Shown piece after piece: positions 38,015 to 60,168 of a stretch of 64,000 bases of DNA (position 1 is the stretch's first letter; every line of letters begins with the position of its first letter). The stretch spans positions 7,933,367 through 7,997,366 of the forward strand of contig NC_081339.1 in the NCBI RefSeq assembly GCF_022539665.2, read 5' to 3'. Below the pieces are notes generated by a model. It was not told where the DNA came from, made no database searches, and was given only the letters and a program-made list of their open reading frames with translations. The DNA is from Daphnia carinata. Taxonomy: Eukaryota > Arthropoda > Branchiopoda > Diplostraca > Daphniidae. A program made the position numbers and the translations under genes.

Positions 38015-39514
38015 TCACGTTGGAATGCCGTATTCAGGAGTAATGTTAAAGTAGTCGTAATACTGAATGGGAAGTGGATCCAAGCCCCGTTCTTTCAAAA
38101 CAAGTTGCACGCTTTCTATCGCCTTGTGAATTAATAATCTCTGGCTGGCAGTGTATGGGAACCTACACCAACAAATAATGGTATTAAAGGAATTTAAAAT
38201 AAAAATATAGCTCAATGTTCAGTTTAATGTACTAAAAGAAAAAAAAAATTAACGTACTCAGTTTGTGCTGTCTGATTAGATTCGCGTTTAAATGAATTAT
38301 CCGCCGTATGGCGTAAAACACACTCCAGCCTTTCTTTGTCGTAACCCAACCCGAGCATCTTTAACAGACGTTTCATTTCCGATCGAGTTTCCCGATGTAA
38401 GAGCTCATAGTAAATGACGCCACCCTGTTTTAGTCCACGGATCCAGACGGTCGCCAAAGTTTCCCAGCCGGCCACAGATCGACTCACGAAATTATCCCAT
38501 CCTGCATATTCAAATAACTTTATTAATTAAAAAAAAACTTAAATCTCAAAGAAAACGTGACGTTCATTGTACCTGTGCCTGAGAAAGCACTTTCTGGTGC
38601 AGCTCCCACCATTCCGGTGAAATCAAAATTACGATAGGATCGTATAGCTTTGAAAGGATTGCGTATAATTAGAATGCCTTTGCCATTGAATTCATCCAAT
38701 GTTTTAGTTCGATTCGCTTCAGGCAAACTGTACAACACGGCGTCCAGTGAAAAGTCATGCGTCTTTTGCAGCAGAGTACATCCACAGTCAACTGGAATCT
38801 GATAGCTCGTGTTAGCTAACGGTGCAAAAACATAAAATTGACACGTTGAATTTGTTTCACAATGTTGTCTCAAGTATGTAATACCTTTGGATTGGAACTG
38901 GGTATCATCACCGGCATAAACTGAGCTGATAAACATACCTGTAATGCCCACTAACAACATACGCAGCCAAGAATTGCCACTGCCAGGGAATGAGACTAAA
39001 GCACCAACTTGCGGATTACTACCAGGTTTAAGCACTCGCGATTCGTATTTAGTACAATTGGCATCGTCATTCCACAAATCTAGCCAATCCAGCGTTCGAT
39101 TCAAATCGGCATCTACATCTGCATCAAATTTGAAGTCTGGAAATGGTTCGATCCCGACAGGCTCGACAGTGGCTATTGCCGCTTCTCCACACAAGTTGGC
39201 TGACAAGGGATCGGCAATTGGTTGAACACTGTTATTATCATCGATGAATTCTTCTAGATCATTTTTATCAATTGTGTCTTCTTCCGTTTCCTGCATCAAA
39301 ATAAATAGAAACATGCAACTGTCCATCTTGAATTGATCTCGAATTTAGAGTTTAAAGACATTGTTTACACTAGAACACTCACCTTATTTTGGAGCAAATT
39401 AAGGGCGAATTGTCGGTTTAAATTCATTCGGTTGGTCCACAAGTAGACGGACGACCCGAAAAAAATGCCAAGTAAGACGTACTGCAAAACATTCAAACGT
39501 CGTCGGTGGAACAT
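38015..39514 (-). CDS. WSCD-family sulfotransferase-like type II membrane protein
   Basis: Resembles WSC domain-containing sulfotransferases of the Golgi. Four exons (39514-39383, 39290-38573, 38501-38258, 38162-38015) give 413 aa. A short basic cytosolic tail (MFHRRRLNVLQ) and a signal anchor (YVLLGIFFGSSVYLW) place the catalytic part in the lumen. The PAPS-binding 5' loop is SFPGSGNSWLRMLL, and the 3' phosphate region is ILIIRNPFKAIRSYRNF. N-glycosylation sequons are frequent (NRT, NST, NTS). No WSC domain is evident between anchor and catalytic domain; instead there is an acidic stem. The substrate is not deducible. Confidence 0.8.
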
Positions 39515-41122: not shown

Positions 41123-41958
41123 TCACATTACTCGCAACGTACACGTCTTCAACTTGATTTTAGTCGACTCGAAAGCTGAACTTTCATTCTGTTTGCTTAG
41201 CAGCTGCTTCATCTCCGGCAAGCAAATAGGCTAATAAAATAACAGTCCAAATGTAATTTCTAAAGAAAAAATATCTGCTAAAAATATGAATCATAATAAT
41301 GTAAATACCTGATCTCCGGCGAAACGGATAAATACGTGTTCCGGATGTTTACCGGCGGTGTCGCACTGGCCGCACAGAGTGAAATCACCATCGCAATCGA
41401 GACATTTGTACACGAAGCCAACAAGCGGATTCTTGCAGCTTGAACAAATCAAATGGCGATGAGGATTGCCCTGACAATTACCCGTAATGGATGGCCTTGT
41501 CGTTTGGATAAATATCCGTATGGGACTCTCTTGGTCATCCAAATGGCCATGTGTTATGACTCTTAAGGCAGCCAACGTCTCTTTAATATTATCACACGGT
41601 ATGGCAATCCTATCGTTCTCCTCATCTATAAAATGAATTTATAATTCAAATCCATATATCCATGCGACATTAGAAGGTCAGGATTAAATTATTTCAATAA
41701 AAATTTCAATTATTTCATACCAACGTAGACAATACGTGTGGGTACATCGGCCAGTTGAGGGTAGACGTTCAGGACTCTCTGGCCGAGCGAAATGTGGCTA
41801 AAAGATGCTGTGTCGGCAGTGGTGGTGTTGCCTGTGACGTAAGACCATGTGAGGAATTTGTAGCTGTTAGCGTCGACCGTCCCATCGGTTGCCATGACGC
41901 CGCACTTGAAGGTCAGCGTGACTTCGGGCATGTTCATTATAGGATTCAGACTCAACAT
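41123..41958 (-). CDS. PB1-ZZ protein, truncated p62/SQSTM1 relative
   Basis: Three exons (41958-41721, 41625-41309, 41230-41123) give 220 aa. An N-terminal PB1 domain (MPEVTLTFKCG to VYVDEENDRIAIPCDNIKETLAALR) keeps a Lys in the first strand and an acidic OPCA-like loop, but lacks the KEIRRF basic cluster of the local p62. A ZZ zinc finger follows (CSSCKNPLVGFVYKCLDCDGDFTLCGQC, then GKHPEHVFIR). The tail is only about 35 residues and has no LIR or UBA. The IPCDNIKET block resembles LPIDDIKET of the anchored PB1 gene at 56 kb more than p62, so those two look like sisters. The inferred role is a PB1 partner of p62 or an adaptor; it cannot bind ubiquitin through UBA. Confidence 0.8.
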
Positions 41959-51604: not shown

Positions 51605-52486
51605 GAGAAAGTAAATGACAGAACACTTTGTCAATACAAAACAGCGGAAAATAACAGGAAAATATCAATGTTTTGTCGTCTGCTAACGCAGAAAATGGCC
51701 ATCTTATGGTACTTACTGAAGTTTCTTCCCAACTGTTAAACTCAAGGGTAAAATAATTTTACTTAGGGATGTATGTTGTCACTAGAGTGTCGCCATAATA
51801 TTAAATGCATTAAATGGGCTATTTTATACTTTTAAGTGTAAAGAGTAAAAAAAAAAAAAAAATTGGGGTTGAGCACTCACTGACTTTTCCGAGATTCTAA
51901 CGGGGGGTGCTCCCTACGAAGGTGCATCCCAGATCGCTATCAGATACGAAATCTACGATCCTTGAGGGGGATGCACCCCGTGAGACGATGGCACACGAAT
52001 GCTACGGCGTGACTTGGCACTAGGTACCAACCGTCTACCGCTTAGTTCGTCTTGGCTGCCTCACAGAGCCCGTATCCGTTTTAAATCTCTTCCAATTCAG
52101 TGGCACTCAACCCTACATCAGTAATGGGGATAATGCAAATCGTTTATACTGTACCATAGACGACGAAAAACACCTACTGCTCGTTATGGCGTCCTTTGAC
52201 CTTTAATGTTAAATTTCGCCAATAAGATAAACTATATTGACAAAATAAAAAAATGAACTGTATTCGCAACTTACCATGTTATTTATTGCTGCAAATTCCC
52301 TTAAAGCTAGAAAAATTTTAACACACAAAAAATGGTACAAAAGTAGCTGGTTTAAGCTCGGGAGCGTGAATGGGACAGGTATACCAGTCCTAACATAAGA
52401 CTAGAAGCTACTCTTCGGTTGCCACCAGGTGGCGTCGGAGTAGCATGTTTCCAAGAAATATTTTTATAACTATCGTTCGGCCCGTT
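51605..52486. repeat. Direct duplication, copy A (about 882 bp)
   Basis: Matches 54631-55512 from end to end by eye, with scattered substitutions and small indels in the flanks. It contains the invariant core at 51866-52095. Its right end abuts a truncated PB1-gene remnant at position 52487, so the segment seems inserted into, or joined to, that remnant. Confidence 0.9.
51866..52113. other. Invariant structured core A, candidate RNA gene or MITE-like element
   Basis: Positions 51866-52095 are identical to 54893-55122 over 230 bp. Outer arms GGGTTGAG (51866-51873) and CTCAACCC (52106-52113) are perfect complements, extended inward by CACTG (51878-51882) and CAGTG (52098-52102). Inside, GGTGCATCCC (51921-51930) pairs with GGGATGCACC (51968-51977) around GATCG/CGATC and AGAT/ATCT. 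No open frame of note. TTTT lies at 52079-52082. Confidence 0.6.
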
Positions 52487-52768
52487 GACGAACGGACATG
52501 GAGCGAATTACCACTCCCGTAAGAATCAGCATTGGAATCCCTTTGTGATGCCTCGATCGTGGCAGACTCTTGTGAGACGACTATGTTGCGCTGTTCTTCG
52601 TTTAGGGCCACGTCAGCCGACTTATTTTCCTTTTCTGATCGTTTCAGATCTATCATAGAAGATTCATAGAAGATCATAGAAGGCCATGACACCCTAAATT
52701 GAATTTGAAATCTCCTATTTGCTCATTACCAACGCACTTCAACATCCCCTCAGCTCCTTGCGAGACAT
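52487..52768 (-). pseudogene. Decayed copy of the PB1-LIR tail-anchored gene
   Basis: The minus strand keeps the first-exon start and part of the N-terminus next to the stretch LKRSEKENKSADVALNEEQR, nearly identical to the third exon of the intact gene at 55845-56877. The PB1 exons between them are missing, and the match stops at duplication copy A, before the LIR and membrane anchor. The frame is not a plausible product. Confidence 0.75.
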
Positions 52769-53179
52769 TTTAGTGAGTGAGGATTCATTCCAAAACGTTG
52801 ACTTGTTTTTACACCAAGTGCATCAACGTCGCACAACGTCCCAACGTTCGGGTGTCGACCATTCCTGAAACTGCAACAAAAGATCAGAGAGCTAGAAAGA
52901 CATACACAGTCCATATTTTTTTACGGGGAAACTGAACTCCTTCCAGCACAATAGGAGGCTACTTCTGCGATTTTTTTTTTACGATTCACTTTGTAGGCCT
53001 ACTGCAGCATTAGTTTCGTTACTGCAAGAGAAGTAAGTAGACATTGCTGGAATTCTCTCGACAGTGACTACTGTTTGGTGTTAAAGAACGCGAAAACGGT
53101 TTGAGGTATTAGTACCCAAGAGAAGACGGCGAAGCTAGAAGCCGAATCCGAAGCCCAATCACTAACAAGTTATTCAAAA

Positions 53180-53575
53180 ATGGCGAAGCCGCTACCATTT
53201 AAGTGTTATCTTTCAAATAAAAACGAACAAGATAAGGAAATTCGCCGTTTCACTCTTGAATTAGATAGGACGAATGATTTCAAGTATCTTACGAGGAAAA
53301 TTATCTCCGTTTACCCACATCTGGAATGGGATAACAATCCTACCATTTCCTATATTGGTAAGCATTCTTTCTATTTTGTTTATAGCGATAGAGATGGCTA
53401 GTGAAATAAGCTAATAACATGTTTTTTGTTTTGTTTATTTTTTAACGATTCAGATGAAGAAGGAGACGAAGTGAGGATTTCTAGCGATAGGGAGCTAGCT
53501 ATTATGTTCACCAAGTGTAAAGATAATGACCCATTCCGTCTTATTGTTCAATATAGTGATGATAAGAAACGTTAA
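53180..53575 (+). CDS. PB1-only remnant of p62, 99 aa, possibly expressed
   Basis: Exons 53180-53357 and 53454-53575 correspond to the first two exons of p62 at 58044, with the same splice phase and a similar leader. The PB1 domain is intact: first-strand Lys (FKCYLS), basic cluster KEIRRF, and acidic loop DEEGDEVRISSDREL. A stop follows ...SDDKKR where p62 continues to the ZZ finger. It could yield a free PB1 domain that blocks or caps p62 polymers, or be a pseudogene. Confidence 0.55.
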
Positions 53576-53690
53576 GTTGTATCATCACCTTCTGGATCAC
53601 GTGGAAATACCGAAGGGGAAATTTACTGGGGTGTGACTTGTGATGGCTGCCAAGGGGTTGTCAAAGGGCGTGTACAACTGGGAGGAGAAA
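53576..53690 (+). pseudogene. Untranslated ZZ-finger remnant
   Basis: After the stop of the PB1-only frame the sequence still encodes [18 protein letters not shown], matching the ZZ domain of p62, then loses similarity. This supports recent decay of a full p62 copy. Confidence 0.8.
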
Positions 53691-54630: not shown

Positions 54631-55512
54631 GAGAAAGCAAATGACAGGTAACACTTTGTCAGTACAAAATAGCGGAAAATAACCGGAAAATATCAATGTC
54701 TTGTCTCCTAACGCAGAAAATGGCCATCTTAAGGTACTTACTGAAGTTTCTTTCCAACTGTCAAATTCTAGGGTAAAATAATTTTACTTAGAGATGTATG
54801 TTCCTGTGAGATTGTCGCCATAATATTAAATGCATTAAATGAGCTATTTTATACTTTTAAGTGTAAAGAGTAAAAAAAAAAAAAAAAAATTTGGGTTGAG
54901 CACTCACTGACTTTTCCGAGATTCTAACGGGGGGTGCTCCCTACGAAGGTGCATCCCAGATCGCTATCAGATACGAAATCTACGATCCTTGAGGGGGATG
55001 CACCCCGTGAGACGATGGCACACGAATGCTACGGCGTGACTTGGCACTAGGTACCAACCGTCTACCGCTTAGTTCGTCTTGGCTGCCTCACAGAGCCCGT
55101 ATCCGTTTTAAATCTCTTCCAACCCAGTGTCACTCAACCCTACATTAATTATGGGGATAATGCAAATCGTTTATACTGTACCATAGGCGATGAAAAACAC
55201 CTACTGCTCGTTATGGCGTCTTTTGACCTTTAATGTTAAATTTCACCAATAAGATAAACTTTTATGATAAAATAAAAAAATGAACTGTATTCGCAACTTA
55301 CCATGTTATTTATTGCTGACAATTCCTTTAAAGCTAGAAAAACTGTAACACACAAAAAATGGTACAAAAGAAGCTGGTGTAAGCTCGGGAGCGTGAATGG
55401 GACAGGTATACCAGTCCTAACATAAGACTAGAAGCAACTCTTCGGCTGCCATCAGGTGGCGTCGGAGTAGCAGTTTCCAAGAAATATATTTATAACTGTC
55501 ATTCCGCCCGTT
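54631..55512. repeat. Direct duplication, copy B (about 882 bp)
   Basis: Second copy of 51605-52486, same orientation, about 3 kb away. Differences are concentrated outside the 230-bp core; for example the A run before the core differs in length and the right flank has many substitutions. Confidence 0.9.
54893..55140. other. Invariant structured core B
   Basis: Identical to core A over 54893-55122. Closing arms GGGTTGAG (54893-54900) and CTCAACCC (55133-55140) are kept, as is CAGTG, while the bases between these arms on the 3' side differ from copy A (TCA against GCA; CC against TT). Confidence 0.6.
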
Positions 55513-55844
55513 ATGTTCGCAATTGAATGGAAGTGAAAATGACTTGGAGATGGCTTATGATTTAAGTGTAAGTAACTGTAGAATTAAACAAGCCACTTTG
55601 AGATCATAAAATTTATTGAACAACATAAATTTAGAAGAATGTTTGAACCGTCAAATGAGATGCTGCATTTTCCAAAAAGTAAACAAAAGGCATATTTTCG
55701 TGTCGAGTGATCTTGTCTCACTCTACGGATTCCTGCACAGCATATCGAACGTAATGGAACTCATTTCATCCTCCATGGAACGTACGACCCCATCCTGTAT
55801 TTCCGAATTTCAAAAGAAACAAAGAAAAAAAATTCCGCATAAGT
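55513..55844. other. 3' flank of the PB1-LIR gene
   Basis: 332 bp. A plus-strand frame (55616-55894) overlaps the end of the gene and is probably chance. Confidence 0.4.
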
Positions 55845-56877
55845 TCAACGCCAAAACCAACGATAAATCAGACATATTGATAGGTAAGTTATGACAGATA
55901 AAAAAACATTATGGACTTGTGAACGATCCGATTGATGACTAGCGCAACTGCTTTCGGTGGTAAAACGACGACGGCGACCACCAATATCTATCCCGCCACC
56001 AACTCGTGTCCAATCCTCCTCGCCGGAATGACTCTGGACCGAAAACGAGGATGAAGATGACGATAATGTCGACGAACGGACAAGAGGCGAATCGCCATTC
56101 CCGAAATAATCAGCATCGGAATTCGATTGTGATGCCTTGATCGTGGTAGACTCTAGTGAGACGGCCATGTTCCGCTGTTCTTCATCTAGAGCCACGTCCG
56201 CCGACTTATTTTCCTTTTCTGATCGTTTCAAATCTGTCGTAGAAGATTTACCTATGTAAAAAACGATTGGACAGCTGTTTTTTATGAATATAGCATCAAA
56301 TTCAAAATTAGCTAACCAAAATCTTCGAGGAGTGTGACGATACGCTCTCCCAGGGTGTGAATAGTTCTCTCAAGTCGATTTAAAGTGTCGACAATCTTTA
56401 ACCCGCTATTTTCGCAGCAAGGAATTACAGCATTATATTCTTTATTTTGAAGTACGTCATTCGAGGGTTGCTTTTGGCCAGGTAACTGCACAAATATTTG
56501 AAGTGGCAAGCTAGACAGGTAGCTGAAACATTGTAATGCGGTCACCGTTTCCTTTATGTCGTCAATAGGCAGAATTATCTTATCATCGTATTTGTCTATA
56601 TATAATTTGAAACAAACAGTGAATTGTAAAGTCGTAGTAGCAAATAAAACAAAAAGCACTTACCGATGAAAACAACTTGAAACGGTTGGACAACGTCAGG
56701 AAAAATAGTTTTCAATTTTTCTCTCAACGTTTGGGTTGTCGCGCTGCCTTTACTTTGTTGACGTGCATACAGTTTGGGCTGGTCATCAAACCAAGAAATG
56801 AATTTGAAATCTCCTATTTGCTTATCACCGACCAACAGACCGCACTTCAACATCACCGTCGATTCCTTGCAAGACAT
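55845..56877 (-). CDS. PB1 protein with LIR-like motif and C-terminal membrane anchor; candidate autophagy receptor
   Basis: Three exons (56877-56664, 56595-56317, 56251-55845) give 299 aa. Residues 1-100 form a PB1 domain (MLKCGLLVG, acidic loop DKYDDKIILPIDDIKET) without the KEIRRF cluster of p62. A short helical or coiled segment follows (LKIVDTLNRLERTIHTLGER). The third exon is Ser- and acid-rich and holds SGEEDWTRVGG, where residues 245-248 (W-T-R-V) fit the LC3-interacting W-x-x-[LIV] pattern with acidic residues before it. The final 23 residues include FLSVITYLSICLIY then RWFWR, a tail-anchor shape. No ZZ or UBA. It lies head-to-head with p62 at 1.17 kb. Function is inferred: membrane-bound partner of p62 or receptor for organelle autophagy. 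Confidence 0.75.
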
Positions 56878-58043
56878 TTTGGAGAATGATGAATTATTTC
56901 CAAAATGTTGGCTTGTTTACACCATGGGCATCAACGTCGTACAACGTCCCAAAGTTTCCGTGTCGACCATTCTTGGAACTGCAACAAAGATCAGAATTAG
57001 AAACATATGCACAGTTTATATCAGTTTTACGTGGAACTGAACTGTTTCCTCCAAAATAGGAGGTTGCTTCTGCGATTCGAGCCCTTTTTGTCTCATGAAG
57101 AAAGAATCGTTTTTGGTGTATGACGAAAGAAAGGAATAGCAACGCACGGTGATGTGGCCATTGGTAATTCAACCAATCGTATGACTGTTTAAGCTGGAAA
57201 GGGATAACGAAGTAGCCATGTTATTTTAATTTGGCAGCAAATAAGGATTTTTAGCGAATCCCCATTTTCGTAATCAACCCTTTTCGCCTTGAAAAACAAA
57301 AAGTTTGATCTTTCAATTTAGTTTAGTTTTATGGTTGTCAAGTAGTCTTTGTGTGCGAAACGATAGTTTTCCTCGAAAAAAGAGAATGGTAATGGTTTTA
57401 GCCGCACGCGTTCACAAGGAACAGGACATGTTTTGATCGTAAACCAAAATTCAACGTAGTGCGTATGAATCATCCGAAATTGCGCAGTTGGTGGCATGAA
57501 GTCTGGATGTGTCACGTTATCATTACAAACTGATACCGAGGAACTGAAAAAAATACATTGTGTTCGCAGTCGACCTTAAAAAAACATAACAAAAGATGCT
57601 ATAGCACAGAGGGGTGAATTAAAAGGAGAGCTGCCCAAAAATGATTTGGGTAAATTCTTTGTCTTTTTCGTTACTGGGGCAGTAGCAAAACTGCGATCGT
57701 AATGAAACATCATGGCGTCATTCTTGTCTTTCTTCCATTCTGTACTTCTTTCTAGAAACATGTTCCAACGGTTTTTAGGTTTTGAAATGTCATCTGTTGT
57801 TCGTCAGATGGCGTTGAAAGCCCAAATATTTTGTTGCCAGTCACGTTGTGCTTGCAGCATTTAGTTTCATTTCAGCACGAGAACTACGTAGACATTCCGG
57901 AATTCTCTGGAAAGTGACGCAACTAAAAGTGTTTTGGTATAAAAGACGCGAAAACAGTTCGAAGTATTAGTATTGAAAGAGAAGAAGGTGAAGCTAGAAG
58001 CAGAATCTGAAGCCCAATCACAAGCTGAACAAGTTAATCAAAA
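56878..58043. promoter_or_regulatory. Divergent promoter region, PB1-LIR gene and p62
   Basis: 1166 bp between divergent ATGs. Parts resemble 52769-53179, so this region was duplicated with the pair. The leader next to the p62 ATG is similar in both copies. Confidence 0.5.
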
Positions 58044-60168
58044 ATGGCGAATACATTACCATTTAAGTGTTATCTTTTAACTAACAACGAACAAGATAAG
58101 GAAATTCGTCGTTTCACTGTTGACCCAGACGTGGTGGGTAATTTCACGTATCTTAGGGAGAAAGTCCGTTCCGTTTACCCACAGTTGCTACGTGAGAATT
58201 TCAGTATTTCCTATATTGGTAAGTATTTTCCCTTTGTTGTTTCAGATTGTGATGGCTAGTGAAGCAGGCTAACAATATGTTTTTTGTTTTCTTTGTTTTT
58301 TGATGATTCAGACGAAGAAGGAGACAAAGTGACAGTGTCTAGTGACGATGAGCTCTTGGGAGCCCTTATGTTTGCCAAGCGTAAAGATGATGAGCCATTC
58401 CGTCTCATTATTCAACTTACCGGTGGAGTGAGACCTGAAGGTGCATCACCACCTTCTGGGTCACCTGGCAATTGTGAAGGGGAAATCCACTGGGGTGTGA
58501 CTTGTGATGGCTGTCAAGGGACTGTCAAAGGATTTCGCTATAAATGTTTCCAATGTCCTGATTTTGATCTATGCGGAAGATGTGAAACAGCAGGACAACA
58601 TCCAGGACATACGCTTATTCGCGTTACAGGAGCTATGGTAATTTAAAAAAAAACTTATGCTTGTTAGGTGGTTTCTCAATAACACTGTTTTTGTTTTCAG
58701 CCTGTGTCATTCCAGGCAATGAGGAACTTACTGAATGGAGGGGCTGAAGTTCCACATTGGCGTCGGAAGCATCATGGACGTTTCCACCATCATCAAGGCC
58801 ATCACGGATGGAGCGCCTGTTCCCAACCTGGCGCCAATGCTGAAGTTAATCCCCCAACCGCGGCGTCAGGGTGCAATAAAGGAGCAAATAAGCCAGATGG
58901 GAAGCCGCATTGTCCATACAAATTTTACATGGACCAGGCAAAAGAAACTGCCTCAAATTTCCAAGCTAACCACCCCGAATACCTTTCGAGTTTGGGCAGC
59001 ACGATTGCGTCCGTCATAGAAGGGCTCGGACTAGGTAAAATGCTGTACGCGGTAGTATATTTTAGATCACAAGGTTTGACTTTTGTTTTCTTGTGTAATG
59101 TAGGACTTGGCGTTGGTAGCAGTGGTGGATCCTGCCCTCGTACATCTTCGCAGAAGCCAGAAGCAAAGAAAGAAAATATTGTCAAGCAGGAGACCAAACC
59201 CGAAGCGAAGAATAACAAACAAGAAGTAAAAAAAGAAGTTATCATTCCCGTCACTCTAGAGAGTGATGAGGTGCCTGTCAGCGCGTCCATTATGAACCCT
59301 TATGCTCAGCTATTTGACGCAATTGCGGTTGCGAGGGCTGTTGAAATGAGCAATGCCAACCTGGCAGCCGGCGCTGCTGCGGCCGCCCAAAAAAATGCAA
59401 ATGCTGAAACTGCTGTTCCTAAAGTAAGTCCCCAGTCTGACATGACTTCACAGACGGGAATGACAGCTCAAGCGCCGCCTCAAGCTGTCGCTGAGGCCGT
59501 AGCTGAAGCAGTAGCACAGGCCCCTTCCCAGGCTGTCGCCGAGGCTGTTGCTGAAGCTGCTGCTTCAGCCCTTCCTCAGGCCGTAGCTGAGGCTGTTGCT
59601 GAGGCTGCTGCTTCGGCCCCTTCTCAGGCTGTCGCGGATGCTGTTGCTAAAGCTGCTGCAGAGGCCGCTAGTGCTGCTCAGACTGCCAGTATTCAAGCTC
59701 TGGCTGAGGCTGGTACTGCAGCCGAAAAAGATCCTTCTCCGTCACAGCAAAATGAAAATACGACAGCGAGCGTGAAGCCTTCCTCCCCGCGTGGTGATTC
59801 TGGTGACTGGACCATCGTAGACCATGGAACAGGAAACGCTAGTAGCGGTAGATCAACCCCTGCAGAGCCTGCCACCCAAACAGAGGGTGCCCGTCCGAAA
59901 AATCCGCCTCAAAAGCCAGTGCAGGAGAAGGTTCCGAGTCATCCAGGTAAACCAGAGTGATGTGTCTTTAAAGTGAAATACAATTGGTTTTAATTCTGAT
60001 TTAAATAACGCAGATCCTTACATATGCGCTGCTTTGGAGACTATGCTGGCAATGGGATTTACCAATGAAGGAGGTTGGCTTGCCCAGCTATTGGAAGTCA
60101 AAGAGGGAGACATAGGAAAGACCCTAGACGTTTTACAGTCACAATTCCAGCGCCGTCAGCAGTTTTAG
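58044..60168 (+). CDS. SQSTM1: p62/sequestosome-1 (Ref(2)P), selective autophagy receptor
   Basis: Delivers ubiquitinated cargo to autophagosomes and forms PB1 polymers. Five exons (58044-58218, 58312-58637, 58701-59034, 59104-59946, 60014-60168) give 610 aa, longer than the 440 of human. PB1 spans residues 1-100, with basic KEIRRF and acidic [15 protein letters not shown], so head-to-tail polymerisation is possible. The ZZ finger spans about 118-162 ([34 protein letters not shown]). Next comes a His/Gln-rich then Lys/Glu-rich linker and an Ala/Val/Glu repeat. The LIR is SGDWTIVDH (D513-V517), and the C-terminal UBA carries [13 protein letters not shown]. Every part needed for a receptor is present. 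The KEAP1-binding motif of vertebrates is not obvious. Confidence 0.95.
59475..59666 (+). repeat. In-frame 48-bp minisatellite in p62 (four 16-aa units)
   Basis: Four tandem units of the type [16 protein letters not shown] follow one another without a break in the fourth exon. Codons vary between units, so the repeat is not very recent. It lies in the linker between ZZ and LIR and predicts an Ala-rich helix. Confidence 0.85.

Follow-up and report, generated by a model that had tools for sequence, protein, structure and literature searches.

A gene divergent from p62 in Daphnia carinata that probably encodes a soluble PB1-coiled-coil-LIR paralogue of the p62 family

What kind of protein is encoded by the gene that stands head to head with p62 in Daphnia carinata? 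The question arises in a 64,000-nucleotide stretch of contig NC_081339.1 (positions 7,933,367 to 7,997,366), hereafter the window, in which a minus-strand gene, here called gene X, starts from an ATG at position 56877 and is transcribed away from a p62 gene on the plus strand. An initial annotation of the window described X as a possible membrane-anchored autophagy receptor with a PB1 domain, an LC3-interacting region (LIR) and a hydrophobic C-terminal tail anchor. The divergent gene beside p62 was confirmed, and its exons and relatives point to a product of another kind: X is probably a soluble p62-family paralogue built of a PB1 domain, a coiled coil and a LIR, with no ZZ domain, UBA domain or membrane anchor in its annotated product. 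The parts of the gene, in positions of the window, are the following.

56664..56877, minus strand: gene X exon 1, first half of the PB1 domain, identical to the annotated product P0001 (see below); donor TCG/GTAAGT
56317..56595, minus strand: gene X exon 2, second half of the PB1 domain, then a predicted coiled coil (about residues 134-166)
55917..56251, minus strand: gene X exon 3, Ser-rich stretch, LIR EEDWTRV (W245), RRRRF basic patch
55795..55916, minus strand: gene X intron 3, 122 nucleotides, weak donor CAA/GTCCAT; the read-through stop ends at 55845
55723..55794, minus strand: gene X exon 4, soluble C-terminus DGVVRSMEDEMSSITFDMLCRNP followed by the stop
55612..55617, minus strand: AATAAA hexamer resembling a poly(A) signal, about 106 nucleotides past the exon-4 stop

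Translation of the four exons yields a protein of 299 residues that equals NCBI LOC130700905 of D. carinata (P0001) residue for residue. The earlier three-exon reading also came to 299 residues, running from exon 3 to the stop at 55845 and closing with the tail VHNVFLSVITYLSICLIYRWFWR; P0001 agrees with that protein through SDRSQ and then runs into DGVVRSMEDEMSSITFDMLCRNP. The 23-residue hydrophobic tail is thus intron 3 sequence in the four-exon model, and the proposed tail anchor was not borne out, since annotated exon 3 ends at 55917, not at 55845, and is followed by exon 4. A pyrimidine-rich tract and CAG precede exon 4.

Searching some 5.8 billion proteins for homologues returned six relatives of X, and a later profile search returned a seventh; these are numbered P0001 to P0007, P0001 being the window's own gene product. 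A homologue search with the tail region of X gave no new relative, and one scan each of a genome-contig and a viral-contig collection gave no confirmed relative of X. The soluble, exon-4-type ending was found in four of the seven: P0001 (D. carinata), P0002 (D. sinensis), P0003 and P0004 (D. galeata). P0003 (seven members; six contigs of at most 1259 nucleotides) appears to be derived from complementary DNA because its contigs are open across all three intron sites. P0005 and P0006 run on into intron 3, and both look like genomic DNA, since P0005 seemingly begins in intron 1 and contains intron 2 and P0006 begins at the Met that comes first in the unspliced exon-3 frame of the window. P0007 ends earlier, after the coiled coil. 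No spliced form of X carrying the anchor occurred among the seven relatives. Orthologues lacking the anchor and W-x-x-V had been set in advance as evidence against the anchored receptor; the exon-4 orthologues lack the anchor and retain W-x-x-V. Judged by the three gene models found, the anchor of X is intron read-through, and an organelle-phagy receptor is not supported by the D. carinata, D. sinensis and D. galeata models or by the one spliced contig set, all of which end soluble. The reading of X as a PB1-LIR-anchor receptor depends on an overlooked intron, and such a receptor is not to be taken further as the main product of the gene.

Intron 3 itself (55795-55916, minus strand) carries, in its 5' part, an in-frame peptide that is conserved in P0005 and P0006. 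One might ask from this whether two products come from X, one soluble and ending in exon 4, the other anchored, at most a minor isoform, and translated from a retained, weakly spliced intron 3; in anchored form X would hold p62 and Atg8 at a membrane, much as was first suggested for this locus. The intron 3 donor, CAAGTCCAT, scored -1.14 on a scoring matrix, the remaining six introns of X and p62 ranging from 3.2 to 9.0. When the intron-3 read-through of the window was aligned with that of P0005, the BLOSUM62 score was 65, a value that none of 5000 shuffles reached (their mean was 24.8), and the read-through pieces of introns 1 and 2 matched P0005 no better than shuffles did, the intron-1 piece having only 11 residues. 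The two intron-3 peptides agree at 14 of 20 ungapped residues and differ in length by three codons, in frame; for four of the six changes a first-position change alone suffices, and the exchange is of one hydrophobic residue for another. Because the whole P0005 open reading frame is 44% to 51% identical to the three-exon protein, the intron-3 peptide is at least as conserved as that frame. The RNA around intron 3 folds less than shuffled sequence (z +1.93), so RNA structure is not an obvious reason for the conservation; conservation of intron 3 as an RNA structure was rejected as a candidate, 197 of 200 shuffles folding at least as well.

The read-through reaches hydropathy peaks of 1.59 in the window, 1.74 in P0005 and 1.68 in P0006, but a hydrophobic 19-mer of at least 1.6 arose in 506 of 20,000 (2.5%) random read-throughs of the window, a level that the window tail (1.59) just misses, and the frame of P0006 extends 78 residues past RWFWR, which would place the anchor away from the C-terminus in that protein. 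Moreover, no transcript that had lost introns 1 and 2 but kept intron 3 occurred among the relatives, where P0005 and P0006 look like DNA, and the 90% cluster of P0001 consists of one sequence and so holds no second D. carinata isoform. On balance we consider two products from X unlikely, and it is similarly doubtful that X is a splice-switched p62 partner that is a soluble NBR1-like adaptor when spliced and membrane-anchored when the intron is retained. If true, the switch would be the in-frame intron peptide, and it could shift p62 polymers between cytosol and membrane; RNA-seq could address this conserved peptide behind a weak donor at low cost, and the outcome might be striking.

The soluble product remains the one that we favor, and its domains can be set beside those of p62 and two further p62-family sequences in the window.

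58044..60168, plus strand: p62/SQSTM1 (Ref(2)P) gene, PB1-ZZ-LIR-UBA, 610 residues, five exons
58044-58218, 58312-58637, 58701-59034, 59104-59946 and 60014-60168, plus strand: exons of p62
56878..58043, no strand: interval separating the start codons of gene X and p62, 1166 bp
41123..41958, minus strand: PB1-ZZ paralogue without UBA, 220 residues; exons 41958-41721, 41625-41309 and 41230-41123
53180..53554, plus strand: p62 copy ending after PB1, 99 residues; exon 53180-53357, then 53454 to about the stop

The p62 gene was complete, as initially described, with its five exons and with Pfam matches for PB1 (E=1.5e-11), ZZ (1e-11) and UBA_5 (3.7e-12) that are all above cut-off; its LIR-like site is SGDWTIV. 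The reported lack of ZZ and UBA in X likewise held, neither domain being found above the Pfam cut-off in the X protein or its D. galeata orthologue, and a weak N4BP1 UBA match (E=0.006) in these scans falls inside the PB1 region.

The PB1 domain of X was confirmed by its relatedness to p62-family PB1 domains and not by the Pfam cut-off: Pfam PB1 was not listed for the window's own X protein and stayed below cut-off in the D. galeata orthologue (E=0.026), which UniRef labels 'PB1 domain-containing'. An hhalign comparison of a profile of four X-family proteins (one being the window's own) with a profile of the three p62-family proteins of this window gave a probability of 96.9 and an E of 1.3e-10 over 97 columns. 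In BLASTP searches the D. galeata orthologue matched the PB1-ZZ paralogue at E=5e-18 and p62 at 2e-7. The intron after exon 1 of X is a phase-1 intron placed directly ahead of the acidic-loop Asp, and this intron is common to X, p62, the p62 copy and the PB1-ZZ paralogue, the third p62-family gene. AlphaFold2 models of P0001 and P0004, used solely for the order of elements and for fold ranking, gave strand-strand-helix-strand-strand-helix-strand and then a long helix, which is the PB1 element order, at low confidence; when the P0004 model was ranked against PDB folds, places 1 to 5 were all MAP2K5/MKK5 PB1 entries. A six-frame search of the genome (108 Mb, 106 contigs) with PF00564 had no hits, not even at p62, whose PB1 domain was presumably missed because it is interrupted by an intron, and protein queries were used instead.

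Conservation extends beyond the PB1 domain. The a and d positions of the predicted coiled coil are hydrophobic at 8 of 8 sites in all five proteins examined (P0001-P0004 and P0007), a heptad score matched by 1 to 9 of 3000 shuffles per protein. The LIR-like motif at W245 was confirmed together with its preceding acidic residues (EEDWTRV), and WTRV is present in all six relatives that reach the site, the window's own protein included. The pattern [DE][DE]Wxx[LIV], picked after the site was seen, occurred in 0.9% of 5000 shuffles, and the bare core LIR motif occurs 8 times in the X protein versus 4.1 times per shuffle. Atg8-family matches above cut-off were found at three places in the genome. 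Such a frequency of core motifs by chance would suit a different role, in which X is a decoy or chain terminator that caps p62 filaments through its PB1 domain and lowers p62-driven autophagy, WTRV being incidental; X has no ubiquitin-binding domain above cut-off and the basic face of its PB1 domain is changed, both of which fit. The invariance of WTRV in the six relatives, its Ser-rich surroundings and the acidic residues ahead of it argue against an incidental motif, however, and we give the decoy little credence.

Our proposal is a different one: X arose within the p62 cluster and would work in soluble form alongside p62, much as NBR1 does. Its PB1 domain retains the first-strand Lys of the basic face, and Phe-Lys takes the place of the p62 Arg-Arg pair, for which reason X probably self-polymerizes poorly. 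Most likely, we infer, the PB1 domain of X would dock by its acidic loop onto the basic face of the p62 PB1 domain. The coiled coil would dimerize X, and the WTRV LIR would bind Atg8 and so either supply p62 bodies with further Atg8-binding sites or keep p62 chains short. Of the idea that X could recruit p62 to a membrane, the sequence supports a PB1- and LIR-bearing partner beside p62 but not recruitment through an anchor. X would act like metazoan NBR1, which one domain search of this genome did not find. According to PMC9582228, metazoan NBR1 has lost the basic PB1 face (a monomeric PB1), contains a coiled coil and keeps its link to p62 through the acidic face, and crustaceans have lost NBR1.

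The same resemblance allows another origin, namely that X is not a p62 duplicate at all but an eroded NBR1 remnant that kept PB1, coiled coil and LIR and lost FW and UBA. The PB1-coiled coil-LIR layout and the changed Arg pair of X recall NBR1 as PMC9582228 presents it, and a search for the FW domain did not otherwise find NBR1 in this genome. Descent from NBR1 is nonetheless improbable: the PB1 domain closest to X among those compared, which included no NBR1 PB1, is that of the linked PB1-ZZ paralogue, the ZZ domain of this paralogue matches sequestosome-1 best, and X, p62, the p62 copy and the PB1-ZZ paralogue have the PB1 intron in common and all lie within about 19 kb.

Several findings weigh against a soluble, NBR1-like paralogue of p62. 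P0001, P0002 and P0004 are gene models, whose soluble endings come from annotation, and the conservation of the intron-3 peptide is left unexplained by a soluble product. The AlphaFold2 models had mean predicted local distance difference test scores of 34.3 and 36.2 (from 4 and 7 sequences), no PDB fold match of the P0004 model reached E 0.001, and unrelated folds appeared from place 6. X profiles searched against PDB sequences found no PB1 chain, and that search therefore cannot separate p62 from NBR1 descent. The similarity of the X and p62 LIR flanks was not significant, 673 of 5000 shuffles being as good, and descent of the X LIR from the p62 LIR was rejected for this reason. The acidic loop of X ranges from DEDGD in D. 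galeata to DKYDD in D. carinata, and with the loop weakened in the latter species docking of X on p62 may be weak there. Finally, NBR1 was not found in one six-frame genome search that used only its hallmark, the FW domain (N_BRCA1_IG). This search, for which no control genome gave a positive, returned one match above cut-off, beside a UBA-like frame, and a second, weak match at E=0.1; the sole match above cut-off we take to be an ILRUN-like gene (L023 4499-5333; G000:C5:8574200-8583900). Given the E=0.1 match, and given that such searches can overlook domains divided by introns, as happened with the PB1 domain of p62, NBR1 is likely, though not certain, to be absent.

The surroundings of X and p62 record a history of duplication. 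A ZZ remnant sits behind the stop of the PB1-only p62 copy, and a copy of X stands next to it:

52484..52972, minus strand: decayed gene X copy, matching only the start of exon 1 with its upstream sequence and part of exon 3

Exon 2, the LIR and the last exon are missing from this copy. The duplicate blocks are 51605-52486 and 54631-55512 (93.8%), 52484-52664 and 56068-56248 (85.6%), 52696-52972 and 56796-57077 (79.6%), and 53003-53667 and 57853-58531 (77.3%). The X-p62 pair had been suggested to be duplicated together as a sign of joint function or regulation; the upstream copy is real, yet it says little about joint function because the X copy and the p62 copy are both broken. The ratio of nonsynonymous to synonymous substitution rates (dN/dS) between the p62 copy and p62 was 0.53 over 91 codons, and a working PB1-only copy is not proposed, since this value could equally result if a single branch had lost its constraint. 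The 51605-52486/54631-55512 blocks, at 93.8% over 887 columns, are apparently younger than the adjoining 77-86% blocks, for which gene conversion, later duplication or a mobile element are candidate causes. Within p62, exon 4 contains alanine-rich direct repeats at 59466-59669 (plus strand), between ZZ and LIR, and upstream of the gene TATAAAAG occurs at 57938, a motif counted 5 times in the window versus 3.84 expected. Elsewhere, an exon-like frame at 38227-38526 (minus strand) has a sulfotransferase match just under the Pfam cut-off.

How X compares with known systems depends on which of its parts is considered. BNIP3, NIX and FUNDC1 have no PB1 domain; X would resemble them, in pairing a LIR with a hydrophobic segment, only in a form that keeps intron 3, whereas its annotated product is without a membrane segment. 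With p62/SQSTM1 it has in common a related PB1 domain with the same phase-1 intron, a LIR of the acidic-W-x-x-hydrophobic type and its place in the genome as a neighbor, and it differs in lacking ZZ and UBA, in having Phe-Lys for the basic-face Arg-Arg, in its predicted coiled coil and in being half as long. The p62 gene is triplicated in D. pulex according to PMC10365311, and X is like those duplicates in representing a p62 duplication specific to a lineage. That study gathered genes with the Pfam PB1 model, which misses the window's X, and the part of it consulted describes no PB1-LIR paralogue without ZZ and UBA. Judged against the open-licence literature, the layout of X is novel as far as these searches reach. 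The sequence evidence assembled here makes X a probable p62 paralogue, specific to its lineage and moderately interesting, with one particular oddity that can be tested. Its nearest functional counterpart would be metazoan NBR1, which is comparable in having a PB1 domain with a changed basic face (in X the Lys is kept) followed by a coiled coil (predicted in X) and a LIR, and like which X would partner p62; X differs from NBR1 in having no FW, ZZ or UBA domain, FW being absent in Pfam scans of X and of its D. galeata orthologue. A p62 paralogue that keeps the parts for assembly and autophagosome binding and neither cargo-binding domain, in animals reported to be without NBR1, would make it possible to ask, in a natural setting, which of the functions of NBR1 p62 has to obtain from a partner.

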